Part shown: in pieces, positions 288-17,335 of the stretch
How positions within the stretch are numbered: position 1 is the first letter of the stretch
Layout of the letters: the number at the start of each line of letters is the position of its first letter
Assembly (NCBI GenBank): GCA_031264015.1
Contig: JAISET010000038.1
Span: forward strand, 1 to 33,748
Direction: 5' to 3'
Length of the DNA stretch: 33,748 bases
Origin: Deltaproteobacteria bacterium
GTDB taxonomy: Bacteria; Desulfobacterota; Desulfarculia; Adiutricales; Adiutricaceae
Program-made: the position numbers and the translations under genes
The notes under the pieces: model-generated
Databases searched by the model: none
What the model saw: only the letters and a program-made list of their open reading frames with translations
What the model was told of the DNA's origin: nothing

Positions 288-2141
288 ATGGCGGCAGTAA
301 AAGTCACCTTTGAGGCCACCAAGGGCTCGCTGCTCGGCCGGGCCTTCTCCTATGAGGAAAAGACCCGCATTTTTATCGGGCGCAATGAGGACTGCGGCAT
401 CGTCGTCTCCGAGAACACCGTCTCGCGCTACCACTGCGTGCTGGAGATCACCCCGCCCGAGGTCAGGCTGCAGGACTTCGGCAGCCTCAACGGCACTTTT
501 TTAAACGGCGAGAAAATCGGCCAGGGCGACCGCGGCCGCTCCGGCGACGAGGCGGGCGGGGAGGCGGGCGAAGAGCATCTTTTGCATGACGGGGACGTCT
601 TGAGGCTCGGCTCCAAATGCGAGTTTAAAATATCCGTCATGGAGATCCAAAAGTGCGCCGGGTGCGGGGCCGAGCTGTCGGCCGCCCCCTCTGGCGACGA
701 GACGGTCTACGAGGGCGGCCCTCCCCGGCGCCTGGACAAAAAAGGGCGGCGCGTCTGCGAGGACTGCCACCTGAAGGCGGAAAAAGCGGAAAAAGCCGAA
801 AAAGCCGAAAAGGCCGAAAAGGCCGAAAAGGCCGAAAAAGCTGGGAAAGCCGAAAAAGCCGCGGCTGAAAAAAAACGGGCGGCCGGGAAAGCCGGGGCCA
901 AGCCGGAGGAAAAAAAGAGCCCGGCCAAGGAAAAACCCCGGGCGGCGGCGGACCAGCCGCCCACGGAGGAAATCAACCCGGCCGAGCTGGAGGCGGCCGA
1001 GCGGCTGGCCGGGGAGCTGGCCCGTCTGGTGGGCGGGGCGGCGGCGGAGGAGGAGAAGGCCAAAAAATGCGCCGGCTGCGGCCAAAAATTCGTCCCGGCG
1101 GGCCCCTCCGACACCCTGTGCCCAAAATGCCTGGACGCCAAGAACCTGATAGTCAGGGCCGTGCTGGCCGACATCATGGCCGGCAAGCTGCCCGGCAAAC
1201 CCCAGGAAAAAGCCGTCGGCCCGTCCCCGGTCGAGGGATACTCCAAGATAAGGCTTCTGGGGAAAGGCGGCATGGGCGAGGTCTGGAAAGTCCGCGAGGA
1301 GGGCAGCGGAAAATTCTTCGCCCTGAAGACCATGCTCCCCCAGGTCAAAACGGACGACAATTCCCGCGAGCTGTTTCTGCGGGAGTCGGACATAGGCAAA
1401 TGTCTCGACCATAAAAACGTCGTCAAAACCCATCGGACCGGCTCCGTCGGCGACACATTCTATATTTTGCTGGACCTCTGCGAGGGCGGCAGCGTCGACC
1501 AGCTGATGGCCAGGAGCGGGGGCAGGCTCTCCCTGGTCCTGGCGACCCGCCTCATCCTGCAGGTGCTTTCCGGCCTGGACTACGTCCACAACGTGGACAT
1601 GGAGGTGCTGGTCAAGAGATTCATGTTCAAGGGCGCAAAAGAGTTCCACGGGGTGGTCCACCGGGATTTTAAACCCGGCAACATCTTTCTTTCCGACGCG
1701 TCCGACAAGCCCGTGGCCAAGGTGGCCGACTTCGGCATGGCCAAGGCCTTCGACTCCGCCGGGCTGACCAAGTTCACCAAGAGCGGGACGGTGATGGGGA
1801 CGCCGGTCTTCATGCCCCGCCAGCAGGCCGTCGACTTCAAGTTCGCCAAGCCCGAGGTGGACGTCTGGGCGGCGGCGGCGAGCTACTACAACATGCTGAC
1901 CGGCCAGCTGCCCAAAAATTTCCGGGCCGGCAAAAACGTCTGGCAGATCATCGTCACCGAGCCGGCCGTGCCCATCCGCCAAAGGGACCCGGACGTGCCC
2001 GAGGGGCTGGCCAGGGTCGTCGACCGGGCCCTCCGGGAGGAGCCCTCGATAGGGTATAAGGAGGCGGCCCTGCTGCGGCGGGACATCATCGGGGCGCTGC
2101 CGGACAAGATGAGAAAAGCCGTCGCGGACGTGGCCTCATGA
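288..2141 (+). CDS. FHA domain / zinc-ribbon / Ser-Thr protein kinase
   Basis: This is a cytoplasmic Ser/Thr kinase with an N-terminal phosphothreonine reader. Residues about 25-115 form an FHA domain (IGR, SRYH and NGTFLNG motifs). Two CxxC pairs follow (C123/C126 with C157/C160, and C261/C264 with C278/C281), resembling small zinc ribbons. Between them is a charged EKA repeat tract (about 166-190). The kinase domain begins near residue 320: glycine loop GKGGMGEVW from G325, K347 in ALK, HRDFKPGN at 458-465 and DFG at 481-483. About 20 extra residues precede the HRD loop. The segment that is normally APE reads MPRQQ (509-513), so the conserved Glu is replaced. The start is ATG 288, with GGAGGA four bases before it. 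The stop overlaps the phosphatase start by 4 nt, so the two are probably translated together. Family assignment is firm; the substrate is unknown. Confidence 0.93.
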   Translation: MAAVKVTFEATKGSLLGRAFSYEEKTRIFIGRNEDCGIVVSENTVSRYHCVLEITPPEVRLQDFGSLNGTFLNGEKIGQGDRGRSGDEAGGEAGEEHLLHDGDVLRLGSKCEFKISVMEIQKCAGCGAELSAAPSGDETVYEGGPPRRLDKKGRRVCEDCHLKAEKAEKAEKAEKAEKAEKAEKAGKAEKAAAEKKRAAGKAGAKPEEKKSPAKEKPRAAADQPPTEEINPAELEAAERLAGELARLVGGAAAEEEKAKKCAGCGQKFVPAGPSDTLCPKCLDAKNLIVRAVLADIMAGKLPGKPQEKAVGPSPVEGYSKIRLLGKGGMGEVWKVREEGSGKFFALKTMLPQVKTDDNSRELFLRESDIGKCLDHKNVVKTHRTGSVGDTFYILLDLCEGGSVDQLMARSGGRLSLVLATRLILQVLSGLDYVHNVDMEVLVKRFMFKGAKEFHGVVHRDFKPGNIFLSDASDKPVAKVADFGMAKAFDSAGLTKFTKSGTVMGTPVFMPRQQAVDFKFAKPEVDVWAAAASYYNMLTGQLPKNFRAGKNVWQIIVTEPAVPIRQRDPDVPEGLARVVDRALREEPSIGYKEAALLRRDIIGALPDKMRKAVADVAS

Positions 2142-2914
2142 CCGGGGCGAGGACGGGCCTGTTCGACTACTCTTTCCGGGCGGCGGGCAGGACCGACGCG
2201 GGAAAAAAGCGGCGGAACAACCAGGACGAGGTCCTGCTCCTCCCCGAGCTGGGCTTCTTCGCCGTCTCGGACGGCATGGGCGGGCTGGAGAACGGCGCGC
2301 AGGCCTCCGAGTTCGTCGTCAGGAGCGTCGGCCCGCTGATGGGGGCCGCCGCCAGGGAGTTCGCGGCCAGCGGCGACCCGGAGGCGGCCGGACGGTCCTT
2401 CCTGGGCTCCGTGCGCCTGATGAGCGACAGTCTCTACGAGGCCGGCAACACGCCGAGTCATTTCCCCTTCGGCGCGACCTTCGTCGGGGTCTGGCTTTTG
2501 CGCGACCGGGCCATATTTTGCTGCCTCGGCGACAGCCGGGGCTATTGTCTGCCCAAACGCAAGAAAAATCTCAGGCAGATAACCGACGACCACAACATGG
2601 CGAGCCTTTTGGTCAAGACCGGAAAACTCACCAAGGCCCAGGCCAAAAACCACCCGTCCGGCTCCAGGCTGACCGCCTTCGTGGGCATGCCGCCCCCGGC
2701 CACCCCTGAGGTGTTCTCGGTGGAGACCCGGCCGGGCGATCGGATAATGCTCTGCAGCGACGGTCTTTACGGCCCCCTGGAGGAGGACGAGGTCGCCCGC
2801 GCGCTGCGCTCCAGCCGCGACCCCGATCGGACGTGCCGGCGGCTGGTCGACATGGCCAACGACAAAGGCGGGCCGGACAATATTTCCGTCGTCCATATAG
2901 CGATATCGGCTTAA
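2138..2914 (+). CDS. PP2C-family Ser/Thr protein phosphatase
   Basis: A 258-aa metal-dependent phosphatase that probably reverses the phosphorylation laid down by the flanking kinases. The PP2C motifs occur in order: RTDAGKKRRNNQD near the N-terminus, SDGMGG (metal-binding Asp), GDSRGY, CSDGLYGPL, and GGPDNISVV with the C-terminal metal-binding Asp. Length fits the bacterial PrpC/Stp type, with no membrane segment or extra domain. The ATG overlaps the kinase stop (ATGA at 2138-2141), indicating translational coupling. The next kinase starts 17 nt downstream. Kinase-phosphatase pairs of this kind, together with FHA proteins, are typical of bacterial phosphothreonine circuits such as the PpkA/PppA/Fha system. 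No secretion genes accompany this one. Confidence 0.93.
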   Translation: MTGARTGLFDYSFRAAGRTDAGKKRRNNQDEVLLLPELGFFAVSDGMGGLENGAQASEFVVRSVGPLMGAAAREFAASGDPEAAGRSFLGSVRLMSDSLYEAGNTPSHFPFGATFVGVWLLRDRAIFCCLGDSRGYCLPKRKKNLRQITDDHNMASLLVKTGKLTKAQAKNHPSGSRLTAFVGMPPPATPEVFSVETRPGDRIMLCSDGLYGPLEEDEVARALRSSRDPDRTCRRLVDMANDKGGPDNISVVHIAISA

Positions 2915-2931
2915 GGTGAAGATGGTACAAC

Positions 2932-5900
2932 ATGAGCGAGTCTGACAAAACGGCGCTCGACCCCGGGGCGACCATGCCGGATCCCGGGGCGACCGCGCCG
3001 GATAAAGACAAGGCCTTCGACTTGACCGCGTTCGACCCGGGTTTGACGGAAACCGGGCCGGAGGGCGTTTTAACCGCCGCCGACGCGGCCTCCCCGTCTG
3101 CCTCCCCCCTCGCCTTTACTCCTTACGCGCCGGGGGATCTCGTGCTCGGAATCTATCGGGTGGAGTCGAATGCCATCGAGTCGGGAGGCATGGGGCGGGT
3201 CTGGCGCGTTAACCACGCCGGTTGGAACTGCGACCTGGCCATGAAGCGCCCCAGGGCCGAATTTTTCTTAAGCGAGAAACACAAGGCGGACTTCGTCCGC
3301 GAATGTGAGGAATGGATCAGGCTGGGGCTCCATCCAAACATCGTCTCCTGCTATTACGTGCGAGAAATAGACGGCATCCCCTCCATTTTTTCCGAATGGA
3401 TGAACGGCGGCAGCCTGGCGGAGTCGATAGAGAGCGGAAGCCTCTACGCCGGGGACGACGGGGAGGCCGTCCGACGGATACTGGACGTCGCCATTCAGTT
3501 CGCCAGAGGGCTGCGCTACGCCCATGGGCGCAAGGACGCCGACGGTCGGGAAATCGGGCTCATTCATCAGGACGTGAAACCCGGTAATGTCTTGCTCTCT
3601 AAAGACGGGGAGGCCAAGGTTTCCGATTTCGGCCTGGCCAGGGCCCACGCGCTGTCGGACGGGGAGACAGTCACCCCTGGCGCCGACGCTCCCGCCGACA
3701 GCACCAAGACCAAGTACGCCGGCAGCGGCGGCTACACCCCGGCCTACTGCTCCATGGAGCAGATGGACGGGCAGAAGCTCACCCGTCGCACGGATATTTA
3801 TTCCTGGGCGGCGTCGGTTATGGAGATGTGGCTGGGCTCGAGGCCCTGGAGCAACGGCGTGGTGGCGGGCTTGAAGTGCTCGGAATATTTCAATATGGCC
3901 CGCCTGCCCATTCCGGAAGCCATGCGGGAACTTTTGACGCGATGCCTTGCCTCCGAGGCCGACGACCGTCCCCATGATTTCGGCGTCGTCGAAGAAAAAC
4001 TCTTGGAGATATTCGCGGCCGAAACGGGCGGGCCCTATTCTCGGCCGCCCAGCGTTCCGGCCAGAGACACGGCCAGCAGCCTCAACAACCGCGCCTTGAG
4101 CTTTCTTGACTTGGGGAAGCCCGGGGACGCGGAAAAATGCTGGAACCAGGCGCTGGCAATTTTACCAGACCACGGCGAAAGCATTTACAACCACGCTGTT
4201 TTCCAGTGGACGCTGGCTAAAATCGACGATTTGGAAGCCGTGCGAAGACTGACCATCAAAGATATTAATTCCGACCACTACCTGTCTTTGGTTCATCTGG
4301 CCAGAGGCGACGTAGAAAATGCCGAGGAATGTCTGGCCAGGGGAAGAAATGTCCTGGGGGAGACGGACGCCCTAACAAAATTGTCTGATTTGATAAAAAA
4401 AGTACAAAATGAAAAAAAGGACGCCAGATGTATTGAAAAATTTGATTTTGCTCCCCGGAACGACACCGACCGCCTGTTTGATAAAATTACGTCGATAGAT
4501 TGTTCTCGGGACGGGAGCAAGGCTCTCGTCTTGTCGCGCGGCAGGCTGACATATTTAGACCTTGTCAATAAAAATTGTGTCTGGCAGGCGACGACTAGCG
4601 GGGGCCAGGGCTCTCCAAACAGCTCCAATAAGCTCAGCTCGATCAGCCCGGACGGGAAGCATGCCCTATTGGCGGATGCGGGAGATCAGATAAAGATCTT
4701 CGATCTGTCGTCAGGGGAGTGCCTCCGGACTATCAAAGCGTCCAAAACATACATCAACGCTGTCTGCCATTGTCCCGATCCCGATATGGCGCTTTTCGGA
4801 GGAAATCTTGGGGACATTTTTTTATGGGATTTAAAAACCGGCGACCGAGTTCGAACTTTAACTTGTCCTGACGGAAAAAGTGTTTATTCCATATGTGTGA
4901 GCCCGGACGGGGAGATGGCGGCGTCGGGAGGAGAAGACGGCGCGGTGAATTTATTCCGCCTGGACACGGGAAGTTTTGTCGGATCTTTTACCGGACACTC
5001 CGGGAATGTCAATTCCGTCGCCTTTGGCTTTGACGGAAAAACATTAATCACCGGGGGTTCCGACAAGGGGATAAAATTATGGGATTTGAACACTTTGGAG
5101 TGCGTTAGAACATTTACCGAAAACAGTGGAAAAATCAACTCAATTTCTCTCAGCCTGGACGGCAAAAAGGCTCTTTCCGGTGGCGGACGTCACGACAGAG
5201 GAGTGGCCAAACTGTGGGACACCTCGACAGGCAGGTGTCTCCGTTCTTTTGATGATCACGCCACCGAAGTCGCCTCCGTCTATTTGTTCCCCGACGGATC
5301 TCATGGACTCGTCGGCGGCAGTACTGTGGAAACGTCGCTTAAAGTATGGAGGATGCCGGACACCGGCCCGCCAAATTATATTTTGAGCAAAATTCATCCG
5401 ACTAATATCGCGATCGGCCAAAAACAACTTTTTGATTCAAAAATTACGGAAATCCATGATCTTATGGCGGGCGATGACATCCCCGGCGCTTTGAAAAAAT
5501 TGAGCGAAGTGAGCGAGATCAAGCAATATGGCGATTTTCAAACTTACTATGACACTAAACGGAAATTGGCGAGATTCTGCGCCCGCGGCAGACCGACCGC
5601 CGTTGAAGTCTCAAGAATAAGATGCGATTCGACGGGGTCAGCCTTGACTTTTGACTCGACCGGCGACAGGATTTTCGGCGACAATTCTCGACTGTCTGAA
5701 ATTCATCTGTGGGATATTAAAACGGGGGAGCTAGTCAGACAATTTAGCGGGCATGACGGCTGGACTACGTCCATATGTCTGAGTCGGGACAAAAAAATAT
5801 TATTGTCGGGATGCATCGACCGGACCATGAAAATTTGGGATGTTGAGACAGGAAAAAGTATTGGCTCATACACACAACCTCAGATGCCGAAAATTTATGG

Positions 5901-6762
5901 CGTTTATTTCAGTCCCGACGGGCGCGACATTGTTTCCATCAGCGGCGCCATGGACGGGATACAATTATGGGATGTTAAAACTCGCAAATGTGTGGCCACC
6001 ATACGTAAAGATCAGGAGTTGTGGGTGGACGACGACTTGAATGTTATGCTCAACGGTGTGAGGTATTCGGACAACGGGAAAGAAATAATCGTGGCATATA
6101 GAGCGGCATATAGAACAGGTAAATTTAGTTATAACGGTAAAATTTTTAACCTGTCGGACGCGAAAGAACACAAGTTTCTTCGCCCGTTTCTTTCTGGGAA
6201 AAGTTCTTTTTTCTTTACCAACAGAGAGGGGGCCGACCTGAATGTAATACTGGCTGTTTACAATGTGAAGTCCAGAAAGAAAATTGACGTGATTCACGCC
6301 GCGGTGAAAGAATGCAGGCACGGTTGTTACAGCCCAGACGGAAAGCTAGTCGCCACTAGTTTTGACAACACGCTAGAAATATTGGACGCCGACTCGGGCA
6401 AATGTCTTCAGAGAATCGCTCTGACCTCCCATATTGGCGTCAATTCAAGTGATGTTTGTTTTAGTTTCGACGGGACGAAAATTGCCTCGACCTGCGGGAA
6501 CGAGATAATCGTTTATGAGCTTGACTACGATCTCGCTTTCCCCGGCTGGGCTGACTGGGATGACGGCGCCCTGCCCTGCGTGGAAGCTTTCCTGAGCGAG
6601 CACCCGAACCACACCGAGGCGGACTTTGAGGATCTTCTTGTCGAGCTGGGCGGCCGCGGCTACGGCTGGCTGCGCCCCGAGGGCGTCCGCGGCAGGCTTG
6701 AAACGCTGGATAAAAATAAAAAGAAAGGTTTTTTTTCCAGTCTCTTTGGAAAAAAGAATTGA
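2932..6762 (+). CDS. Ser/Thr protein kinase with TPR and double WD40 propeller
   Basis: A 1276-aa cytoplasmic kinase-scaffold protein. Residues 1-60 are disordered and contain five TxxD motifs (T7, T14, T21, T32, T48). The kinase domain spans about 75-345: glycine loop ESGGMGRVW, K105 in AMK, HQDVKPGN from H212, DFG at 232-234. Arg of HRD is Gln, but the catalytic Asp (D214) is kept. TPR-like helices follow (about 382-475). WD40 repeats fill about 506-806 and about 890-1195, separated by a helical linker; repeats such as GHSGNVNSVAF...IKLWD are clear. The last 80 residues form a distinct tail rich in Asp then Lys. ATG 2932 follows the phosphatase by 17 nt with a weak AAGGTG site. The WD40 half is noticeably A+T-richer than its neighbours. 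A broken copy of the gene lies immediately downstream. Confidence 0.92.
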   Translation: MSESDKTALDPGATMPDPGATAPDKDKAFDLTAFDPGLTETGPEGVLTAADAASPSASPLAFTPYAPGDLVLGIYRVESNAIESGGMGRVWRVNHAGWNCDLAMKRPRAEFFLSEKHKADFVRECEEWIRLGLHPNIVSCYYVREIDGIPSIFSEWMNGGSLAESIESGSLYAGDDGEAVRRILDVAIQFARGLRYAHGRKDADGREIGLIHQDVKPGNVLLSKDGEAKVSDFGLARAHALSDGETVTPGADAPADSTKTKYAGSGGYTPAYCSMEQMDGQKLTRRTDIYSWAASVMEMWLGSRPWSNGVVAGLKCSEYFNMARLPIPEAMRELLTRCLASEADDRPHDFGVVEEKLLEIFAAETGGPYSRPPSVPARDTASSLNNRALSFLDLGKPGDAEKCWNQALAILPDHGESIYNHAVFQWTLAKIDDLEAVRRLTIKDINSDHYLSLVHLARGDVENAEECLARGRNVLGETDALTKLSDLIKKVQNEKKDARCIEKFDFAPRNDTDRLFDKITSIDCSRDGSKALVLSRGRLTYLDLVNKNCVWQATTSGGQGSPNSSNKLSSISPDGKHALLADAGDQIKIFDLSSGECLRTIKASKTYINAVCHCPDPDMALFGGNLGDIFLWDLKTGDRVRTLTCPDGKSVYSICVSPDGEMAASGGEDGAVNLFRLDTGSFVGSFTGHSGNVNSVAFGFDGKTLITGGSDKGIKLWDLNTLECVRTFTENSGKINSISLSLDGKKALSGGGRHDRGVAKLWDTSTGRCLRSFDDHATEVASVYLFPDGSHGLVGGSTVETSLKVWRMPDTGPPNYILSKIHPTNIAIGQKQLFDSKITEIHDLMAGDDIPGALKKLSEVSEIKQYGDFQTYYDTKRKLARFCARGRPTAVEVSRIRCDSTGSALTFDSTGDRIFGDNSRLSEIHLWDIKTGELVRQFSGHDGWTTSICLSRDKKILLSGCIDRTMKIWDVETGKSIGSYTQPQMPKIYGVYFSPDGRDIVSISGAMDGIQLWDVKTRKCVATIRKDQELWVDDDLNVMLNGVRYSDNGKEIIVAYRAAYRTGKFSYNGKIFNLSDAKEHKFLRPFLSGKSSFFFTNREGADLNVILAVYNVKSRKKIDVIHAAVKECRHGCYSPDGKLVATSFDNTLEILDADSGKCLQRIALTSHIGVNSSDVCFSFDGTKIASTCGNEIIVYELDYDLAFPGWADWDDGALPCVEAFLSEHPNHTEADFEDLLVELGGRGYGWLRPEGVRGRLETLDKNKKKGFFSSLFGKKN

Positions 6763-6879
6763 AGTGATTTTTCAAATTAATTATCCGTCGCGCGGCGACG
6801 CGGGCGACCAAAACAGCCGGCAAAAAAATATTTTCGACGTCCAAATATCCGTCATGGTTCGAGGCGAAAAAGGCTTGGT

Positions 6880-7534
6880 GTGAGAGAGGCGGCCAAAACG
6901 GCGTTCGACCCCGGCGCGACCAGGCAGGAAAACGACGGCGCGCCAGGCAGGACGACGTTGGATCCCGACTCGGCGGAAACCAGGCATGAGAGCGAAACCG
7001 CCCCGCCCCGGAAGAAATTCAAGCCGCCCCGCCATCCGCCGCCTCCATCTTCGCACCCTACGAGTCTGGCGACCTCGCGCTCGGGATCTACCGGGTGAAG
7101 TCAAAAGCCGTCGAGTCGGGAGGCATGGGGCGGGTCCGGCGCGTCAACCGCGCCGGTTGGAACTCCGACCTGGCCATGAAGCACCCCGGGGCCGAATTTT
7201 TCGTCAGCGAGAAACACAAGGCCGACTTCACCCGGGAATGCGACGAATGGATCAAACTAGGCCTCCATCCCAACATCTTCTCCTGCTGCCACGCGCGCGA
7301 AATCGACGGCGTTCCCTCCGTCGGCGGCGCCGCGGGGAGGATGATTTTAAGAGTCTTCCCGCCGAGCTTGGCGGCCGCGGCCCCGGCTGGCCGCGCCCGG
7401 AGGAGGTCCGCGACAAGCTTGAGAAGCTGAGGAGAAAGCCCGGGAAAGGTTTTTTTCCAGACTTTTTGGAAAAAATTAACGCGGGTCTGTTTTGGCCGGC
7501 TCGTCATGACGCCCCGGGATACGAGGGGGACTGA
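6880..7534 (+). pseudogene. Decayed, internally deleted copy of the WD40 Ser/Thr kinase
   Basis: Three consecutive frames match the upstream kinase gene. From GTG 6880 the product reads KTAFDPGAT, like the kinase start KTALDPGAT. After a frame change near 7010-7045 it reads APYESGDLALGIYRV, then VESGGMGRVRRVNRAGWN through REIDGVPS, close to kinase residues about 65-149. Near 7310-7340 it jumps in another frame to LPAELGGRGPGWPRPEEVR and KGFFPDFLEK, matching the extreme C-terminal tail (about 1233-1276). The catalytic loop, TPRs and all WD40 repeats are missing, a loss of roughly 1,080 codons. DNA similarity to 3165-3370 is high, so the duplication is fairly recent. A working product is unlikely, although the 7095-7430 piece alone is open. 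Confidence 0.8.
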
Positions 7535-7633
7535 GGGGGACTGTGGCGGAGGGAGGATTTTTTTACGGCCTCAAATTTTATTTTCCATGATCAAGCCGGC
7601 CGGCCTTAAACCCGGTCTGGAGAAAATGTCGAG

Positions 7634-9307
7634 ATGAAGCGCCAGCCTAAAAATCCCAGGCTCAGGGTCATGATCGGTGAAAATCCGGGGGCGGCTTACG
7701 ACGTGGCGGGGAAACTGCGCGTCGGACGCGACGGAACCCTCAACGACGTGGTTTTGAAAGACGCCTCCGTCTCCCGGGAGCACGCCGTCCTGACGCTCGC
7801 CAACGGCGAGGTGACGATCGAGAGCCTGGGCAGGCATCCGGTCGTCGTCAACGGCGACGCCGTGGCCGGCCGGCGCGCCCTGCGCCACGGCGACGTCGTC
7901 ACCATGCGCTCGACGCTGTTTGTTTTCGAGGACCAGACCGGTTTGTCGGACTCGGAAAACGAGCTGCTGATCGCCTCCGGGCGGGCGACGGACATATTCA
8001 CCAGATTTGTGGCCGGGCCGGACGAGGGGGAGGAGCCCGACGGGGAGCCCGACCACCAGAGCTTCCGCCTGGCCTCCAGGCGGCTGAAATCTTTGTATGA
8101 GCTGTCCCAGACGCTCTCGGTCGAAACCGATTTGGAGCGCCTGCTGGACAGCGTCGGCGACTCGGTCCTCAAGCTCCTGCCGGCCAGCAACGTGGTCGTC
8201 CTGCTTATAAACCCGAAGACGGGCGAGCTGGAGCCGCGCCGGGTCAGGACCAGGGAGGACGGCGGCGACGCCGTGCCCTACAGCCGCCACCTGGCGCGCC
8301 GCTCGTTCGATTTCGGCGAGGCCATTCACTGGTCCGTCGACTCGGCGAAGTCGGTCTCCGAAAGCGTCGCCAAGCTGGAGATAACCGAGGCTTTGGTCGC
8401 CCCCCTGGAGTTCCAGGACCTCAGGCTGGGCGTCATGTATGTCGACACCCGGGGGGCCGGCGCCGCCTTCACCCCCCGGCACGATTTGGAGTTCGTGGTG
8501 GCTTTCGCCCGAAGCGCCGCCATCGCCCTCAGTAACGCCCGCCACCTGGCCATGTTGGAACGTTCTTTCCGCAACACCCTGGTCGCCCTCTCCAACGCCG
8601 TCGAGGCCCGGGACCATTACACGGTGGGGCACACCTGGAGGGTCACCTGCTTCGCCGTCGAGATCGCCCGCGAGATGGGCCTCGACGAGTCGGTGATCGC
8701 CGCCGTGGAGACAGGCGGCGTCCTGCACGACGTGGGCAAGATCGCCATTCCGGACAGCATTCTCTCCAAGCCGGGCCCGCTGACCGACGACGAGTTCGCC
8801 GTTATGAGGGGCCACCCCCAGAGGGGCGCCCGCATTCTGGAGGACGTCGAGTCCCTGAGGGTGGCGGTTCCCTGCGTCCTTTACCACCATGAAAAATTCG
8901 ACGGCGCGGGTTATCCCTTCGGCCTGCGGGGCGAAAAAATTCCCCTGGAGGGGCGGGTCGTCTGCCTGGCGGACGCCTTCGACGCCATGACCAGCGACCG
9001 TCCCTACCGCAAGAGACTGGCCCTGGAGGAGGCGGTCGGGCGGGTGCGGGAAGGTTCCGGCACCCATTTCGACCCCCGGTGCGTCTCGGCCTTCGACAGC
9101 TGCCACCGACGGGGTCTGTTTCAAGCCGCCCTGCAGGCTGATTCCGCCGCCGACGGCTTCGCGGTCAAATGCCCCTATTGCGACACCCTAGTCGCCGCCC
9201 CGGCGCGCCTCGGGGAGGAGGAAATAGTCGTCTGCCACGTCTGTCATCGAAAACTGCGTCTGCGCCTGGTTGACCAAAACATCGCGGTTGATATAATAGG
9301 ATTCTAG
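7634..9307 (+). CDS. FHA-GAF-HD-GYP protein, probable cyclic-di-GMP phosphodiesterase
   Basis: A 557-aa cytoplasmic signalling protein. An N-terminal FHA domain (about 10-105; GRDG and SVSREHAVL) should read phosphothreonine. A GAF-like sensor domain covers about 145-310, beginning with an amphipathic helix. A complete HD-GYP domain follows: GHTWRV, HDVGKIAIPD with H365/D366, HHEKFDGAGYP from H418, and LADAFDAMTSDRPYR. The known role of HD-GYP domains is hydrolysis of cyclic-di-GMP, and the metal ligands look intact. The C-terminus adds a small zinc ribbon (C513/C516 and C534/C537). ATG 7634 has GGAGA ten bases upstream. It is the second FHA protein in the locus, which suggests that it is recruited by the products of the upstream kinases; that link is inference. 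Confidence 0.9.
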   Translation: MKRQPKNPRLRVMIGENPGAAYDVAGKLRVGRDGTLNDVVLKDASVSREHAVLTLANGEVTIESLGRHPVVVNGDAVAGRRALRHGDVVTMRSTLFVFEDQTGLSDSENELLIASGRATDIFTRFVAGPDEGEEPDGEPDHQSFRLASRRLKSLYELSQTLSVETDLERLLDSVGDSVLKLLPASNVVVLLINPKTGELEPRRVRTREDGGDAVPYSRHLARRSFDFGEAIHWSVDSAKSVSESVAKLEITEALVAPLEFQDLRLGVMYVDTRGAGAAFTPRHDLEFVVAFARSAAIALSNARHLAMLERSFRNTLVALSNAVEARDHYTVGHTWRVTCFAVEIAREMGLDESVIAAVETGGVLHDVGKIAIPDSILSKPGPLTDDEFAVMRGHPQRGARILEDVESLRVAVPCVLYHHEKFDGAGYPFGLRGEKIPLEGRVVCLADAFDAMTSDRPYRKRLALEEAVGRVREGSGTHFDPRCVSAFDSCHRRGLFQAALQADSAADGFAVKCPYCDTLVAAPARLGEEEIVVCHVCHRKLRLRLVDQNIAVDIIGF

Positions 9308-9370
9308 ACCGACTTGACGAGTTATTTCGGCCGATAGTTCGGCGTCATATGTCCAAAACAGCTTGAAACT

Positions 9371-9415
9371 ATATTCAAAACAATCAACTAACGTATTAAC
9401 AATTGTTTTCAATAT
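9371..9415. repeat. Inverted repeat, 14-bp arms
   Basis: Arms at 9371-9384 and 9402-9415 are reverse complements at 13 of 14 positions, the exception being a central C-C mismatch, with a 17-nt A+T-rich loop. No T-run follows, so it is not a standard intrinsic terminator. It could be an operator, or an mRNA stem-loop between the HD-GYP gene and the protease gene. Confidence 0.6.
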
Positions 9416-9476
9416 GGACGCGAGTCATTAAAGATTATAAATGACAACCGTCCGGAAGTTTCCCCAAACTATGCTC

Positions 9477-9545
9477 GTCCGTTGGACGGCCCGCCCCTCG
9501 TTTGTTGGCCGGCCCGCCCCTCGTCCGTTGGCCGGCCGGCCGGCC
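9477..9545. repeat. Three tandem copies of a GC-rich 23-bp unit
   Basis: Units at 9477-9499, 9500-9522 and 9523-9545 share the pattern GTCCGTTGG-CGGCCCGCCCCTC with a few substitutions; the third diverges at its end into CCGG repeats. They lie 86-154 bp upstream of the preferred protease start. Confidence 0.65.
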
Positions 9546-9630
9546 TGACGGGGAAATGAAAAGCCTCGACGCCGGATTTGGCAAAACGAGGGGGCCGGCC
9601 GCCCTCACGTTGGAAATTGGAGAGACCTCC

Positions 9631-12600
9631 ATGGAACTTTCACCCTCCCTGCAATTCGTCATGCTCCGGGCCCAGGCCGAGGTGGCGGCGGCCAAGTCCA
9701 AAAATATGTCCCTCGAGTTCATCTTTCTGGGCATGCTCAAGCTGGCGGAGATCGCCGGCGGGGACATCGTCGAGGGATCCGACAGTCGGGCGGCGGTCGA
9801 TGCCGACATAGCGGAGGTGAAAAAAATACTGAAGGGCGCGGGCCTCGACTCCACCCGGGCCAGAGGCCTCCTGCGCCACGAGGTCGGCAGGGGCGTGGCC
9901 CATGACGAGCGGGCGCTGGTGACCCGCCTGGCCGAGGCCTCCGCGCGGGCCAAAAAACGAGGCGCCGACGAGATTTGGGCCCGGGACATGCTGCCGGGCC
10001 TTCTGCAAAACCCCACCGAGGCCATGCTGCGGGTGCTGCCGCTGAAAAACAAGCCGGGGGGGGGAGCCTCGGGGCCCCCGGGGGAGGACGGCCGGTCGGG
10101 GGAGGCCGGGGAGGAGAGCCGGGTCGACGAGATGAGTCGGGATTTTCTGCCCTCGCTGACCAACCGCATCCGCCTGACCCGGGCGACCCTTCTGAACGAC
10201 GTCCAGGGCCAGGACCACGTGGTCCACGCCTTCGTCGAGGGCGTCTTCGCCGCCGAGGTCCTGGCGGCCAGCGACGAGAAACGGGTCCGGCCCAGGGCCA
10301 TCTTCGTCTTCGCCGGCCCCCCGGGGGTGGGCAAGACTTTTCTGGCGGAGCAGGCGGCGGCGTCCCTCGCCCTCCCCTTCAAGCGCTTCGACATGTCCAG
10401 CTTTTCCGACCACCAGTCGTCAACGGGGCTGGTGGGCTTCGAGCGCAGCTACCAGGGCGCCAAGGCGGGGACCCTGACCTCGTTTGTCAAGGAAAACCCG
10501 CACAGCATCCTGTTGTTCGACGAGATCGAAAAGGCCCACATCAACACGATCCATCTTTTTTTGCAGGTCCTCGACGCCGGCCGGCTGACCGACCGCTTCC
10601 TGGACGAGGACGTCGCCTTCAAGGACACCCTCATCATCTTCACCAGCAACGCCGGGCGCTCCCTGTACGAGGGGGACGCCAGGCAGGACTCCGCCGGGGT
10701 GCCCCGCAAGACCCTCTTAAACGCCCTGGAGACGGAGAAAAACGCCCAGACCGGGCAGCCGTTTTTTCCGGGCGCCATCACCAGCCGCATGGCCACCGGC
10801 TGGCCTCTTTTGTTCAACCATTTGCGGGCCCACAACCTGGAAAAAATCAGCGTCAGGGAAATGTCCCGGTTTTGCGCCCTGTTTGAGAAACAGTACGGGG
10901 TGCGGGCGGAGGCGGAGGATCTGGTCGGCACGGCCCTTTTGTTCGGGGAGGGCGGGACGGCCGACGCCAGGACGCTGCGGGCCCGGACGGAACTGTTCTT
11001 CAAAAACGAGGTCTTCAAGGTCTGCCGCCTGTTCAGCGAGGAAAATTTCGAGGCGAGGCTGGCCAAACTCAACCGGCTCGTCTTCAAGGTCGAGACGGAC
11101 AAGCTGCCCGCCGAGGTGCGGCCGCTGTTCTTCTGCGACGAGACGCCGGAGATTCTTCTGTACGGGAGCCCTTTGTTTCCCGGCCAGGACGGCGTCGGGA
11201 CGGGCGGCTACGCGCTCCATCAGACCCAGTCGGTCAACGACGCCCTGGCCCTGGCCGGGGAGAAGGACATCCGGCTGGCCCTGGTGGACGTCGCCGTCAG
11301 AAGCGCCCCCCCGGGCCCCGCCGACCTCCGGGAGACCGTCTTCGCCGACTCGCCCGACTTGCTCCTGTCCGGGGCGGCCTTTGATTTCGCGCCCATGGCC
11401 GCCGGGATGTTCCGGGACGGCAACCGCCTGTTCAACACTCTGCGCCAGCGGCTGCCCGACCTGCCCGTCTATCTTCTCGAGACGGACGAGTTTCCCATCG
11501 ACGACGAGCTCCTGATGAGCTATGTCCGCGCCGGGGCGCGGGGCAAGCTCGTCCGGCCGACCGGGGACTTCACCGTTTTTAACGAGCAGATCGCCCTTGT
11601 CTGCCGGGAGCTTTACTCCCAGGGGGTGGCGGCCCGTCTGGCCTCGGAGCGCAAGGTGCTCTATTTCGAGACCGCCCCCAAGCTCTCCGAGGACCAGGGC
11701 GAGATCACCGTCCGCCTGAGGGACTTCTCCCTGAAGCGGGCGACCGACGCCGACGACGCCGGCGGCCTGCTCGACGACGTCGAGAAGCCCAGCATTCGCT
11801 TCGGCGACGTCATCGGCGCCGCGGAGGCCAAGGACGAGCTGAAGTTCTTCATAGACTATCTGAAAAACCCCAAAAAGTTCACCGCCCGGGGTCTGAAGCC
11901 GCCCAAGGGGGTCCTGCTTTACGGTCCTCCGGGCACGGGCAAGACGATGCTGGCCAAGGCCATGGCCGGCGAGTCGGACGTGGCCTTCATTCCCGCCGTG
12001 GCCAGCTCCTTCGTCACCAAGTACCAGGGCAGCGGGCCCGAGGCGGTGCGCTCCCTGTTTAAAAAGGCCCGCCGCTACGCCCCGGCGATTGTTTTCATCG
12101 ACGAGATCGACGCCGTCGGCCGAAAGCGCGGGGAGTCGAACACCTCGCACGGCGAGGAGATGGCCCTGAACGCCCTTCTGACCGAGATGGACGGCTTCTC
12201 GGTCGACCCCAAGCGCCCCGTCTTCGTCCTGGCGGCCACCAATTTCGACGTCGAGGAGGGTCAGGGGGGCATGGGCGTGATCGACGCCGCCCTGGCCCGG
12301 CGCTTCGACCGCAAGGTGCTCGTCGACCTGCCCAACGCCGCCGAGCGCGAGCTGTTTTTCCGCTTTTTTCTGGCCAAAAACAAGACCCATACCGTCAGCG
12401 AGGAGATGATCGTCCGCCTGGCCTCCCGCTCCACCGGCATGAGCCCAGCCAACCTGACCTCGGTCATCGAGCTGGCCAACCGCATGGCCGTCAAGGCCGA
12501 CGTCCCCCTGTCCGACGCGCTGTTGGACGAGGCCTACGAGCTGATCAAGCACGGCGCCAAGAAGGAGTGGGGTTACGAATATCTCGAGCGGGTGGCCAGG

Positions 12601-13098
12601 CACGAGAGCGGCCACGCCTTTTTGTGCTACCTCGGGGGCCACACCCCCTCCTATCTGACCATCGTGGCCCGGGGCGGGCACGGCGGGTATATGGAGCATG
12701 CCTCCGACGAGTCGGGCCCGCTCTCGACCAAGGAGGAGCTCATCAGCCGCGTCCGGACAAGCCTGGGCGGGCGGGCGGCGGAAATAGTCTATTACGGGGA
12801 GCGCGACGGCGTCTCCACCGGCGCCTCCGGCGACCTGAGCCAGGCCACCAAGATCATCCGGGCGATGATCGCCAGCTACGGCATGGATTCGGAGTTCGGC
12901 CTCGGGGTGATGGACCAGCGGGAGGCCGCCTCCTCGCCGGAGTTGAACAAGCGGGTCAACGAGATCCTGGCCCAGGAGATGCGCGAGACCATAGGCCTGA
13001 TCGCGGGCAACAAGCCCCGCATCGACCGTATGGTGACGGCGCTTTTGGAGCGGAACAAGTTGAGCGGCCAGGAGATGGAGGAGCTGCTGAAAGATTGA
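9631..13098 (+). CDS. Soluble ClpA-like/FtsH-like double AAA+ zinc protease with receiver-like linker
   Basis: A 1155-aa fusion. Residues 1-150 resemble a Clp N-domain. An AAA+ module of the ClpA/ClpB second-domain type follows: GPPGVGKT at 229-236, ILLFDEIEKAH from 293, and TSNAG. Residues about 505-660 look like a degenerate receiver domain (LVD near 551, LLETD near 614, K639). The C-terminal third is FtsH-like: GPPGTGKT at 765-772, IVFIDEID at 820-827, ARRFDRKV, then the M41 zinc motif HESGH at 991-995 and GDLSQAT with the probable third ligand Asp. No transmembrane segment is visible, unlike ordinary FtsH. The likely role is ATP-driven unfolding and degradation of selected proteins in the cytosol. 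ATG 9631 was chosen over TTG 9502 and ATG 9556 because GGAGAG precedes it by six bases and the Clp-N homology begins there. Both ATPase sites appear complete. Confidence 0.88.
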   Translation: MELSPSLQFVMLRAQAEVAAAKSKNMSLEFIFLGMLKLAEIAGGDIVEGSDSRAAVDADIAEVKKILKGAGLDSTRARGLLRHEVGRGVAHDERALVTRLAEASARAKKRGADEIWARDMLPGLLQNPTEAMLRVLPLKNKPGGGASGPPGEDGRSGEAGEESRVDEMSRDFLPSLTNRIRLTRATLLNDVQGQDHVVHAFVEGVFAAEVLAASDEKRVRPRAIFVFAGPPGVGKTFLAEQAAASLALPFKRFDMSSFSDHQSSTGLVGFERSYQGAKAGTLTSFVKENPHSILLFDEIEKAHINTIHLFLQVLDAGRLTDRFLDEDVAFKDTLIIFTSNAGRSLYEGDARQDSAGVPRKTLLNALETEKNAQTGQPFFPGAITSRMATGWPLLFNHLRAHNLEKISVREMSRFCALFEKQYGVRAEAEDLVGTALLFGEGGTADARTLRARTELFFKNEVFKVCRLFSEENFEARLAKLNRLVFKVETDKLPAEVRPLFFCDETPEILLYGSPLFPGQDGVGTGGYALHQTQSVNDALALAGEKDIRLALVDVAVRSAPPGPADLRETVFADSPDLLLSGAAFDFAPMAAGMFRDGNRLFNTLRQRLPDLPVYLLETDEFPIDDELLMSYVRAGARGKLVRPTGDFTVFNEQIALVCRELYSQGVAARLASERKVLYFETAPKLSEDQGEITVRLRDFSLKRATDADDAGGLLDDVEKPSIRFGDVIGAAEAKDELKFFIDYLKNPKKFTARGLKPPKGVLLYGPPGTGKTMLAKAMAGESDVAFIPAVASSFVTKYQGSGPEAVRSLFKKARRYAPAIVFIDEIDAVGRKRGESNTSHGEEMALNALLTEMDGFSVDPKRPVFVLAATNFDVEEGQGGMGVIDAALARRFDRKVLVDLPNAAERELFFRFFLAKNKTHTVSEEMIVRLASRSTGMSPANLTSVIELANRMAVKADVPLSDALLDEAYELIKHGAKKEWGYEYLERVARHESGHAFLCYLGGHTPSYLTIVARGGHGGYMEHASDESGPLSTKEELISRVRTSLGGRAAEIVYYGERDGVSTGASGDLSQATKIIRAMIASYGMDSEFGLGVMDQREAASSPELNKRVNEILAQEMRETIGLIAGNKPRIDRMVTALLERNKLSGQEMEELLKD

Positions 13099-14003
13099 TC
13101 CGGCACTCCCGCCAAAACTCGGGCGAACCGCCGGGAAAAAAAAGGCGGACGTCTATGACGAATTGGACGAGGTTGGGGTCATGGGCGCGGCCGTCAAGAG
13201 AACGGAAGGGGGGCTGAGAAACCCCGAAAATTATCGGGCGGCCGTCGCTTTGAGAAATTTTCACCGCGCTTGGAGTTTCTCCGTTCCGCCCGGAAGTTTT
13301 TCATTTCGCTTGGGACTTTATTTCTCTCGCTTGGGACTTTCTTTTTCCAATCGGAAGTTTTTTTTTCCGCGTTCGGGGGCTGTTTTGCCTCCCCGCTTGA
13401 AGTTTCTATTCTCTGTTTGGTGATTATTTTTCTTCACTTGGTGTTATTTTTATTCCGTTTGGCAGTTTTTTTACGCCGCTTGGCAGGTTTTTCTCTTGCC
13501 CGGGACTTTTTTCTTTCGTCTGAAGATTTTTTTCGCTGCTCGAGAGGTCCTTTTTTCTGGCTTGAAGCCTCTTTTTTTTGGGCTCCGGGCTTCTTTTTTT
13601 TTGGGCTCCTGGCTTCTTTTTTCATTTCGGGCCCTCATTATTTTTCTCCGGGCCTCTTTTTCTGGCTCCGGGCCTCTTTTTCTGGCTCCGGGCTTTTTTA
13701 TTTTTTCCAGGGTCTCTTTTTTTCTTTTCGGGGCGGCTTTATTTTTCTTCCGGCCCCATTTTCCCGCCCGCGGCCTATTTTTTCGGAACGAGGGCCGCCC
13801 GGCTTGGCCCGGGCGGCGGCCGCCGGGGCGCGGGCGGGGGGAGAGGCCGGGCGAGACTCGCGGGGTCGGAAGAAAGGCCGGACTTCCGAAAAGCCGGCGC
13901 CCCCCCCGGCTTTGGGGGTTTGTCGGTTTGCGGGCAGGCCAGTTGTTTTCCCGCTTGTTTGCCTGACGGCGGCGCCGCGGCCGGGGTGGCGGCTCGTTTT
14001 CCT
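13099..14003. other. Non-coding interval between the protease gene and the trkA promoter
   Basis: I see no convincing gene in these 905 bp. The centre (about 13260-13770) is a degenerate T-rich array, listed separately. The stretch 13770-14003 is very GC-rich. Open frames exist on both strands, but they translate to Phe-rich (plus) or Lys/Arg-rich (minus) low-complexity strings with no ribosome sites or family features, so I treat them as spurious. Confidence 0.6.
13260..13770. repeat. Degenerate T-rich repeat array
   Basis: About 500 bp consist of runs of 4-9 T residues spaced roughly every 20-30 bp and separated by GC-rich words such as GCTTGGGAC, GGAAG, GGCTCCGGGC and CGGGCCTC. The best-preserved part is an exact 20-bp tandem duplicate at 13651-13670 and 13671-13690. 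TCGCTTGGGACTTT also recurs about 21 bp apart near 13306 and 13327. Strand asymmetry is strong: the top strand is pyrimidine-rich in the tracts. The function is unknown. Confidence 0.7.
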
Positions 14004-14032
14004 TTGGCAAACGACGCTTTTGCTGCTATCAT
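14004..14032 (+). promoter_or_regulatory. Candidate sigma70-type promoter of trkA
   Basis: TTGGCA (14004-14009) and TATCAT (14027-14032) each match consensus at 5 of 6 positions, with an ideal 17-bp spacer. It would start transcription about 100 nt upstream of the trkA ATG at 14138. Confidence 0.6.
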
Positions 14033-14137
14033 GGTGGGGCCGAGCGTTTTTCGGGCCCCGCCGCGGGCGCCGACAGTCGTTTTTTTGTCCTCCCCGGGCG
14101 GGCCGGTAGGGCCCGGGGCGCCCCGAGTGTGTTTTTC

Positions 14138-15493
14138 ATGAAAGTCATCGTTGCCGGGGCCGGCGAGGTCGGCTACAACATCGCCGAGAGGCTCTCCCGC
14201 GACAAGGCGGACGTGGTCCTGGTCGACATAGACCAGGCCCGCCTGGACGCCGTGTCGGAAACCCTGGACGTGCAGACCATCCGCGGCTCGGCCTCCCACC
14301 CGGCGGTCCTGAAGGACGCCGGCCTGGACGACAGCGACATGCTGGTGGCCGTCACCAGCAGCGACGAGATCAACGTCCTGGCCTGCCGCATGTCCCAGCT
14401 GCTGGCCCCGGAGGTCAGGCGGGCGGCCCGGCTCAGGGACCAGCTTTTATACAAGGCCGTCAGCGAGGAGGTCCTGAAGGACGGGCTGGGCCTCTCTTTC
14501 GTCATCGACCCGACGTCCCTGACGGTGGACAACATCCTGGATTTTCTTGATCTGCCGGGGGCGGTGGACGTCATCAACGTGGCCTCCGGCAGCCTCAAGT
14601 TCGTGGGCCTGCGGCTCGGGCGCAGCCACCCCGCCGTGGGGCGGCCGCTCTCCGAGGTCCTGCCCCGGGGCGGCGGCAACAACCTCCTGGTCGTGGCCAT
14701 CTACCGCCACCACCAGGTCCTCATCCCCACCGGCGGCACCGTCTTCAAAGCCCGCGACCTCGTCTACATGGCGGCCACCCCCGACCACATGCCGGAGGTG
14801 GCCGCTTTTTTTGAGATCGAGTGGAAGACCGTCGAAAACGTCTTCATCATGGGCGGCGGCGAGGTGGGCCTCAGCCTGGCCCGCAGGCTCGAGGAGAGAA
14901 GCGGGTCGCTGTCCATCAAGCTGATCGAGCAGAACGCCGAGCGCTGCGAATATTTGAGCCGCGAGCTCAGCCGCTCCATCGTCCTGCGGGGCGACGCCAC
15001 CGACCAGACCCTGCTGGAGGACGAGGGCGTCGCCGACTGCGACGTCTTCATCGCCGTGGGCACCGACGACGAGAAGAACATGGTCACCTGCCTTTTGGCC
15101 AAGCGTCTGGGCGCCACCAACACCATCACCCGGGTCAACCGCTACAGCTACGCCCCCCTGGTCTCGGCCATCGGCCTGGAGTCGCTGGTCTCGGCCAGGG
15201 TGGCCGCCGTCTCGGCCATTTTGAAATACATCCACAAGGGGGTGGTGGTCTCCGTGGCCACTTTGCAGAACGAGGACGCCGAGATCGCCGAGGTCGCCGT
15301 CACCGAGGACTCGGACCTCTGCGGGAAGTCTTTGAAGGACTCCAAGTTTCCCTCCGGCGCCATCGTGGCCGGGGTCATCAGGGACGGGGCCTGCTTCGTC
15401 CCCCGGGGCGACAGCGTCCTGCGGTCGGGCGACACTCTGGCCGTGGTGGCCAGGTCCGACGTCGTCCATCATCTGACCAAGAAGCTGGGCTGA
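14138..15493 (+). CDS. trkA: Trk system potassium uptake regulatory protein TrkA
   Basis: A 451-aa peripheral membrane subunit that binds nucleotide and gates the TrkH potassium channel. It has the standard duplicated layout of nucleotide-binding RCK_N and C-terminal RCK_C domains. The first Rossmann motif is GAGEVG at 6-11 with the acidic VDID strand; the second is GGGEVG near residue 239. TNTITRVNR and the closing RCK_C segment (SGDTLAVVAR) are typical. Length matches the family. ATG 14138 is chosen because MKVIVAGAGEVG is the usual TrkA start; a GTG three codons earlier is possible, and no strong ribosome site is visible. The trkH gene follows after a 390-bp gap that contains its own probable promoter. 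Confidence 0.95.
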   Translation: MKVIVAGAGEVGYNIAERLSRDKADVVLVDIDQARLDAVSETLDVQTIRGSASHPAVLKDAGLDDSDMLVAVTSSDEINVLACRMSQLLAPEVRRAARLRDQLLYKAVSEEVLKDGLGLSFVIDPTSLTVDNILDFLDLPGAVDVINVASGSLKFVGLRLGRSHPAVGRPLSEVLPRGGGNNLLVVAIYRHHQVLIPTGGTVFKARDLVYMAATPDHMPEVAAFFEIEWKTVENVFIMGGGEVGLSLARRLEERSGSLSIKLIEQNAERCEYLSRELSRSIVLRGDATDQTLLEDEGVADCDVFIAVGTDDEKNMVTCLLAKRLGATNTITRVNRYSYAPLVSAIGLESLVSARVAAVSAILKYIHKGVVVSVATLQNEDAEIAEVAVTEDSDLCGKSLKDSKFPSGAIVAGVIRDGACFVPRGDSVLRSGDTLAVVARSDVVHHLTKKLG

Positions 15494-15883
15494 CGGCGAG
15501 ACAGCGGCCGGCGGGGCTTTCCGGACCTTCGGCGCCCGGCTCCTTGCCCGTCGGCCCGCGATGGGGTAATATTGCCAAAGAATATATTTGTTTGCTAAGT
15601 TTTGGCAAGTCTTGGTTAGTGTCACTTTGTTTCGTATAATTGTTAGCAATTTCTTGTTTCGGACGCATACGTTCTTTCTTTTTCCTAGATTGTTGGCGCC
15701 CGTCCGGCCGGCGGCGGCCGTCTTGTCCGCGGCGGCGTACGCCGTCGTTTTTGTCCCGTCGGCGTCGTCGTCCGCCTTGTCGCGGAAATCGCCGGAAACC
15801 GGCGCCCTTGTTTTATTTTCCGGGGCGCCGACGCCGGGCGGGCCTGGCCGGCCTCTACGGACGGACCGGGTCTCAGAGGGCTG
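15494..15883. other. trkA-trkH intergenic region
   Basis: These 390 bp hold no recognisable gene. An A+T-rich block (about 15565-15690) contains a probable promoter and an 8-bp inverted repeat with arms at 15572-15579 and 15601-15608, ending just before the -35 element. The remaining 190 bp up to trkH are GC-rich and would be untranslated leader. Confidence 0.55.
15612..15640 (+). promoter_or_regulatory. Candidate promoter of trkH
   Basis: A perfect TATAAT (15635-15640) lies 17 bp downstream of TTGGTT (15612-15617, half-match to TTGACA), inside an A+T-rich island. The inverted repeat TTGCCAAA/TTTGGCAA (15572-15608) abuts it and could be an operator. The leader to the trkH ATG would be about 235 nt. 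Confidence 0.5.
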
Positions 15884-17335
15884 ATGATCAATCCCCGTCT
15901 CATAGCCCATCTGACCGGCTGGATAATCCTGTTCACCGGCCTGGGGTTTCTGCTGCCCCTGATCCCGGCCTACGTTTACGCGGACGGCTCGGCCCTGTGG
16001 TTCTGGGAGTCGCTGGCCGTCTCGACGGCCCTGGGGGCGGCCCTGATGGCCGTCGGGGGGCTGACCTCGGCCCACGAGCCCCGCTATCGGGACAGCCTGG
16101 CCGTGGTGGGGCTCTCGTGGTTTTTGATCAGTCTCGTGGGCTCGCTGCCGTTCATTTTTAGCGGCCACCTCGACGTCTGGTCGTCGATCTTCGAGTCCTT
16201 CTCGGGCTTCTCCTCCACCGGGGCCTCGGCCATAGAGGATTTGCGGCCCGTCCCCCGGGGGCTTTTGTTCTGGCGCTCCTTCATCCAGTGGCTGGGGGGC
16301 ATGGGCATCATAGTCCTGATGGTCGCCGTCCTGCCGTTTCTGGGCGTGGGCGGGCAGATCATGTTCAAAAGCGAGCTCTCGGGGCCCGCCTCCGACAAGC
16401 TCCGGCCCCGGGTGGCCCAGACGGCCAAGATCCTCTGGGGGCTCTATCTGGTTTTGACGGTGGTCCTGGTGGCCCTGCTGTCCGCCGGCGGGCTCGAATT
16501 TTTCGAGGCGGTCTGCCAGGCCCTGGTGACCATGAGCACGGGCGGCTTCTCCAACTTCAACGAGTCCGCCGCCTACCACGACAGCCGCTTCGTCCAGGCG
16601 GTCATCCTGGTCTTCATGTTCCTGGGCAGCATCAGCTTCGCCCTGTACTGGCAGCTTCTGTCCGGCAACTGGCGCTCGCTGGTCCTGAACGGCGAGGTCT
16701 TGTTCCTGTCGGGGCTTTTGCTGCTGATCTCGCTGGTCTCCACGGCGGCCCTTTTGCATTCGGACTATTACCAGAGTCCTTTCGAGGCTTTCTTCCAGTC
16801 GCTCTTCCAGGCGACGTCGGTGGCCTCGACCACCGGCCAGTTCACCGCCGACTGGACCGGCTGGCCGCATCTCTCGCAGGCCGTGATCTTTTTTCTCTTT
16901 TTCGTCGGCGGCTGCTCCGGCTCCACCAGCGGCGGGGTCAAGTGCATCCGCTGGCTCCTCCTGATTAAAAGCATCCACCGGGCCTGCCGCAGGCTCATCC
17001 ATCCCCGGGGGGTCTTTCCCGTGCGCCTGCAGGGCCGCAACATGAGCGAGCAGGTCCTGGAGGGCGTCTGGCTTTTTTTTCTGATATACTTTCTGACCAT
17101 GGCCGTCAGCACCCTGGCCGTCACGGCGGTGGGGCTCGACCTGCTGACCGCCTTCTCCGCCTCGGCCAGCGCCCTGGGGAACGTGGGCCCGTCCTTGGGC
17201 CTGGTGGGGGCCACCGGCTCCTACGCCGCCTTCCCGCCCGCGGCCAAGGTAATTTTGTCTTTGTGCATGCTCATGGGCCGCCTGGAGTTCTATAGTTTCG
17301 TGGTCCTGTTCTTTCCCGAGTTCTGGAGACGCTGA
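15884..17335 (+). CDS. trkH: Trk potassium transporter membrane subunit TrkH
   Basis: A 483-aa inner-membrane potassium channel/transporter subunit that works with TrkA. The sequence is hydrophobic throughout with about ten membrane helices. The four filter/pore-loop signatures are recognisable: SGFSSTGAS, STGGFSNFNES, TGQFTADWTGW and SALGNVGPSLG. The stretch GGCSGSTSGGVKCIRW is typical of the family. ATG 15884 has AGAGGG only three bases upstream, which is close but is the only visible site. Its stop is two bases before the start of the mpl-rnc gene, so the two are probably co-transcribed. Confidence 0.95.
   Translation: MINPRLIAHLTGWIILFTGLGFLLPLIPAYVYADGSALWFWESLAVSTALGAALMAVGGLTSAHEPRYRDSLAVVGLSWFLISLVGSLPFIFSGHLDVWSSIFESFSGFSSTGASAIEDLRPVPRGLLFWRSFIQWLGGMGIIVLMVAVLPFLGVGGQIMFKSELSGPASDKLRPRVAQTAKILWGLYLVLTVVLVALLSAGGLEFFEAVCQALVTMSTGGFSNFNESAAYHDSRFVQAVILVFMFLGSISFALYWQLLSGNWRSLVLNGEVLFLSGLLLLISLVSTAALLHSDYYQSPFEAFFQSLFQATSVASTTGQFTADWTGWPHLSQAVIFFLFFVGGCSGSTSGGVKCIRWLLLIKSIHRACRRLIHPRGVFPVRLQGRNMSEQVLEGVWLFFLIYFLTMAVSTLAVTAVGLDLLTAFSASASALGNVGPSLGLVGATGSYAAFPPAAKVILSLCMLMGRLEFYSFVVLFFPEFWRR

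Follow-up and report, generated by a model that had tools for sequence, protein, structure and literature searches.

The stretch of DNA analysed here (the window, 33,748 nucleotides of contig JAISET010000038.1 from a Deltaproteobacteria bacterium) encodes a single-chain protease in which a Clp-type AAA+ module, a predicted receiver domain, an FtsH-type AAA+ module and an M41 zinc peptidase follow one another behind a segment resembling the Clp N domain. Clp-type unfoldases depend on a peptidase that is a separate protein, and FtsH is anchored in the membrane. The account of the locus that we consider probable as a whole is a soluble, self-contained AAA+ metalloprotease with two motors, switched by a kinase/phosphatase system. 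The family is a new combination of known modules, and its recurrence across about eight phyla, often beside kinase or phosphatase genes, makes it look like an undescribed signalling-linked machine for protein destruction. It offers a single-gene system in which to study the cooperation of two different AAA+ rings, and a candidate for phosphorylation-controlled proteolysis in bacteria, gut Lachnospiraceae included.

Domain architecture of the fusion protease

The protease gene runs from an ATG at 9631 to a stop codon at 13096-13098 and is preceded by an RBS-like motif and a promoter match (Table 1); the latter is a consensus match only, at 11 of 12 positions with TG before the second hexamer. 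Pfam searches with the window protease sequence itself placed AAA_2 at residues 221-352 (E = 4e-33), AAA at 761-899 (5e-47) and Peptidase_M41 at 986-1152 (1e-27). Among NCBIfam models, residues 181-412 came nearest to ClpA (139 bits) and residues 718-1148 to FtsH (TIGR01241, 336.6 bits, short of the equivalog cut-off of 600 bits). The first AAA+ module is closest in the PDB to the second AAA+ rings of ClpE, ClpC, ClpA and ClpB, and its SYQG aligns with their GYVG pore loop; the chain has this one D2-like Clp module and lacks the D1 and D2 pair of ClpA and ClpC. The N-terminal membrane anchor of FtsH is missing: no transmembrane segment was found in the window protease, with a maximal 19-residue hydropathy of 1.31 vs. 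2.71 for a housekeeping FtsH control.

Table 1. Features of the protease gene and its upstream neighbours in the window
Feature	Position	Strand	Details
FHA domain and Ser/Thr kinase	288..2141	+	conserved neighbour; HRDFKPGN and DFG intact
PP2C phosphatase	2138..2914	+	conserved neighbour
Ser/Thr kinase, middle region and WD40 propeller	2932..6762	+	conserved neighbour; HQDVKPGN, DFG
Decayed second copy of kinase-WD40 gene	6881..7476	+	non-coding; internally deleted, frame-shifted
FHA-GAF-HD-GYP protein	7634..9307	+	directly upstream of protease
Sigma-70-like promoter match	9270..9297	+	TTGACC-16-TATAAT, upstream of protease gene
RBS-like motif	9619-9624		GGAGAG, ahead of protease ATG
Protease ORF (Clp_N-like/AAA_2/receiver-like/FtsH AAA/M41 fusion)	9631..13098	+	1155 aa; ORF confirmed
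Clp N-domain-like helical segment	9631..10029	+	aa 1-133; family profile, Clp_N in 6/48, predicted helices
Clp D2-type AAA+ module	10144..11070	+	aa 172-480; Walker A 229-236, Walker B D297-E298, sensor N340, pore-loop Y274, Arg-finger candidate R386
Receiver-like domain	11143..11571	+	aa 505-647
Phospho-acceptor position of receiver-like domain	11287-11289		D553
FtsH-type AAA+ module	11776..12555	+	aa 716-975; Walker A 765-772, D824-E825, pore-loop Y798, R890-R891
M41 zinc peptidase	12574..13086	+	aa 982-1152
Zinc-binding motif of M41 peptidase	12601-12615		HESGH
Third zinc ligand	12832-12834		D1068

Pfam matched neither Clp_N nor Response_reg on the single window protease sequence; both were seen family-wide. 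Besides the Clp_N hits in N-terminal segments (Table 1; best E = 1.3e-6), a family profile of this segment matched the PDB with a best value of 2e-10, to ClpC, and its best 60 PDB matches were of the ClpC/ClpA/ClpB/Hsp104 type with few exceptions, for example a type VI secretion protein. These matches point to a Clp N domain in the family, the assignment in the window protein itself resting on the profile.

Response_reg was found in 18 of the 48 family middle segments (best E = 2.2e-5), and the profile of these segments matched receiver domains in the PDB at about 1e-6, together with two de novo designs. The proteins matched in G057 and G061 are response regulators of the ordinary kind; they were rejected as family members and bear on the receiver assignment only. 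When the middle segment was modelled with AlphaFold (pLDDT 83), receiver-containing proteins made up 49 of its best 50 PDB structural matches, with TM-scores of about 0.65-0.75 by target. Residues 505 to about 647 are accordingly modelled as a receiver fold, in which the phospho-acceptor Asp at the end of strand 3 (D553) is Asp in 43 of 48 segments and the remaining active-site residues (acidic pair, Thr/Ser, Lys) are largely replaced. At these positions, which were placed by eye using the ends of the strands, the window protein has G512-S513, E617 and R642, while the family is acidic at 513 in 27/48 and has Ser/Thr at 617 in 10/48.

The domain series given by the first-pass annotation, from the Clp-N-like domain through the degenerate receiver to the FtsH-type AAA+ and M41 modules, is borne out by these searches, as is its reading that no membrane segment is present. 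Its ClpA/B-type module also stands, now refined to a single D2-type ring in place of a two-ring ClpA. It had allowed that residues 505-660 might hold no receiver fold and the N-terminal half no Clp domain; a predicted receiver fold and a Clp N match are present. In a full-length monomer model (pLDDT 81), matched best in the PDB by AFG3L2, FtsH and YME1, a disordered linker follows the N domain, and AAA1, the receiver, the FtsH AAA and M41 are folded; the pTM of 0.60 makes relative domain placement uncertain.

Catalytic conservation and spread of the family

We aligned 44 family chains, one of them ending at a contig edge. Both Walker A motifs (GxxxxGK), both Walker B DE pairs, both sensor Asn residues, the arginine-finger candidates R386 and R890-R891, HExGH and the zinc ligand D1068 are invariant, extending to the family what had been noted of the Walker A/B sets and HESGH in the window. 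At the pore-loop position, the Clp ring (274) has Y, F or W in 44/44 chains and the FtsH ring (798) Y, W or F in 42/44. Binding to the Clp protease core requires the IGF motif, and chaperones of the ClpB type, which lack this motif, are unable to dock (PMC7966870). In the loop from sensor 1 to the arginine finger, the docking tripeptide [ILMV]G[FLMV] occurs in 0/44 chains, a count made without a ClpA/ClpX positive control. The catalytic invariance and the lack of the tripeptide fit the self-contained soluble unfoldase-protease proposed at first pass, and sequences and models together strongly suggest a soluble hexameric enzyme of this kind.

Three shorter sister chains (L092 7088-9409, L094 862-3312 and L095 6745-9213; 774-822 aa) have the order AAA_2-FtsH-M41 without a receiver; the Walker motifs of their Clp-type AAA+ are decayed and HEAGH is intact. 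Judged from sequence, they represent a second fusion family, with a probable pseudo-ATPase. Their decay indicates that loss of ATPase function is possible in the Clp part, as would suit a Clp ring that is only regulatory or disaggregating, with the FtsH-M41 half alone acting as the processive protease; in the long chains, however, both AAA+ modules keep every examined catalytic residue in 44/44, and we find this division of labour quite improbable. The sister form also indicates that conservation in the long family is not automatic. We favour two working motors.

The family was collected with a profile of its unique region (the end of AAA1, the middle segment and the linker) built from the window, G005, G052 and G308. 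Scanning the genomes of 84,980 species yielded 54 loci, and at 44 of these the architecture first read in a single gene recurs as a complete chain of 1.0-1.25 kaa with two Walker A motifs, HExGH and no inner stops. The window's assembly is indeed a draft of 282 contigs, but the idea that an assembly or gene-prediction artefact fused clpA-like and ftsH genes is scarcely conceivable: it is refuted by the full-length architecture at 44 loci, which means that the window protease is no chimeric contig, and members include records not marked MAG (Lachnospiraceae bacterium NE2001, Syntrophaceticus schinkii Sp3). One candidate, G041:C85, had the frame length of a full member but was rejected: it is a TilS-FtsH read-through that contains masked bases and has the membrane segments of an ordinary FtsH.

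As labelled in the records, the family spans about eight phyla: Bacillota (most members), Planctomycetota, Acidobacteriota, Chloroflexota, Hydrogenedentota, Lentisphaerota, Thermodesulfobacteriota and 'Deltaproteobacteria' bins labelled Myxococcota. It is patchy, with full members in 3 of 63 genomes of the window's class and in 2 of 395 genomes of a phylum sample, the window's own included. No relatives were found in the viral contigs or the plasmids searched, leaving a phage or plasmid origin unsupported. The closest relative of the window protease is that of Christensenella UBA7703 (74%), and a quick tree places it inside a Bacillota group among Clostridia, away from the same-genus G005 copy. 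A nearby TrkA gene (14129-15493) is 80% identical to same-genus genomes and typical of the genus. The nesting among Clostridia beside a genus-typical TrkA makes horizontal acquisition likely, and the simplest reading of the sequences and the quick tree is that the gene was probably gained from Clostridia.

The kinase and phosphatase neighbourhood

The gene order in the window is FHA-kinase, PP2C, kinase-WD40, remnant, FHA-GAF-HD-GYP, protease. The order FHA-kinase, PP2C, kinase-WD40, protease is also found in the Syntrophobacteraceae genome L037 and several Clostridia, and variants of the kinase/PP2C/protease order occur in Planctomycetes (L058) and Hydrogenedentota (L071). Among 55 loci, many of them on short contigs, a kinase lies near the protease at 25, an FHA-kinase at 14 and a PP2C at 16; kinase neighbours are mostly absent from a divergent Ruminococcus/Oscillospiraceae clade. 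The window's 3.95-Mb genome holds three PP2C matches, which puts chance proximity within 10 kb at about 1.5%, for this genome alone. At L057 (6827-12466), a single 1879-aa chain runs kinase-TPR-(propeller-like)-Clp ring-receiver-FtsH-M41. The earlier suggestion of phosphorylation-linked proteolysis, drawn from the position of the gene after the FHA/kinase genes, gains from the cross-phylum neighbourhood and from this kinase fusion, and gene context points with moderate confidence to phosphorylation as a control on the protease or its substrates.

DnaK-type genes, in place of kinases or together with them, adjoin the protease at four loci (L022 1043-3199, L052 from 1, L067 729-6536 and L082 from 16495); L067 further encodes a protein whose N-terminus looks J-domain-like by eye, and Pfam scored no J-domain there. 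These neighbours would fit a general quality-control protease tied to Hsp70 and not to phosphorylation, which would sit beside kinases since genomes of this sort often carry signalling clusters. However, kinase and PP2C neighbours outnumber Hsp70 several times over among the loci, few PP2C genes are present in the genome of the window, and one genome has the kinase fused to the chain; we therefore hold a role tied to Hsp70 to be rather unlikely and retain control by phosphorylation as the preferred reading.

The remnant matches the kinase-WD40 gene at 82% over 297 bp and 76% over 140 bp (blastn); a 182-aa ORF lying between the kinase gene and the HD-GYP gene was rejected as a gene, being a pseudogene remnant in the wrong frame. 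At L046, two kinase-WD40 genes stand in tandem. The FHA-GAF-HD-GYP gene was not seen beside the protease at other loci, bar one GAF-HD match in L045, and its position between the kinase cluster and the protease makes a link to c-di-GMP possible. The ORF at 13270-14109 has no Pfam match and looks like a chance ORF, and an Rfam search gave no match.

Other loci show further arrangements. The window's Clp-N query matched a separate small upstream ORF at L061 and a stretch of the kinases adjoining the protease at L040 and L054; Pfam scored no Clp_N in the L040 or L061 proteins. At L085, in the divergent clade, a ClpP-like protein of 192 aa was read by eye upstream of 1723, a neighbour that, like the scarcity of kinase genes in this clade, counts against the account favoured here. 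The window's genome also carries separate ClpP and housekeeping FtsH genes, which makes the fusion protease an additional machine.

Proposed machine and comparison with known systems

We propose that six chains would stack as a barrel of rings, with mobile Clp-type N domains on top, followed by the Clp D2-type AAA+, a receiver-like collar, the FtsH-type AAA+ and M41; the Clp half would occupy the place of the membrane anchor in FtsH. The N domains or an adaptor would catch the substrate, and aromatic pore loops would thread it through both motors directly into the chamber of M41, with neither ClpP nor a membrane involved. The receiver-like domain, lying between the motors, would be placed to couple or gate both. 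The FHA-kinase, the kinase-propeller protein and PP2C would set the phosphorylation of the protease or its substrates and so switch degradation. We infer the hexamer, the direction of threading, the cytosolic location and the control by phosphorylation. More tentatively, Ser/Thr phosphorylation by the operon kinases might mark substrates for the one-chain protease or protect them from it, FHA and WD40 serving in recognition and PP2C as eraser, a scheme that is possible although we would not lean on it; if true, it would be a counterpart in function of phosphodegron-dependent proteolysis, without ubiquitin or proteasome.

Our search of the open-access literature found no described family with the Clp-receiver-FtsH-M41 architecture; subscription papers lay largely outside it, and an earlier description is possible. 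FtsH-MoxR-vWA ternary systems, known in e.g. Planctomycetes and Deltaproteobacteria, likewise have two AAA+ modules of which the second is FtsH-type, but there both are FtsH-type, the first is inactive, and MoxR and vWA genes are defining, so that both rings and the defining genes differ from those of the window protease (Kaur et al. 2020, PMC7159879). Neither MoxR nor vWA is among the Pfam families listed for the nine ORFs of 288-17002.

ClpCP with McsB phosphoarginine tagging is a kinase-linked degradation route with entry via the Clp N domain; it resembles our proposal in this linkage, whereas the kinases at the window locus are Ser/Thr kinases. Two acidic positions of the Clp N domain are presumed here to bind phosphoarginine, the first corresponding to E29 of the window protease. 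That position is Glu in 30/44 chains and the second has no counterpart, so we treat this as a lead only.

Like ClpA, ClpC and ClpE working with ClpP, the window protease has a Clp N-domain-like segment and a D2-type AAA+ ring that would feed a peptidase; unlike them, it has one Clp ring, not two, no ClpP-docking tripeptide, and a covalently joined zinc peptidase. With FtsH and the m-AAA and i-AAA proteases (TIGR01241, PF01434) it shares AAA+ and M41 over residues 718-1148, HExxH and the third Asp ligand, but it lacks their membrane anchor, scores under the 600-bit cut-off, and carries a Clp ring and a putative receiver in front.
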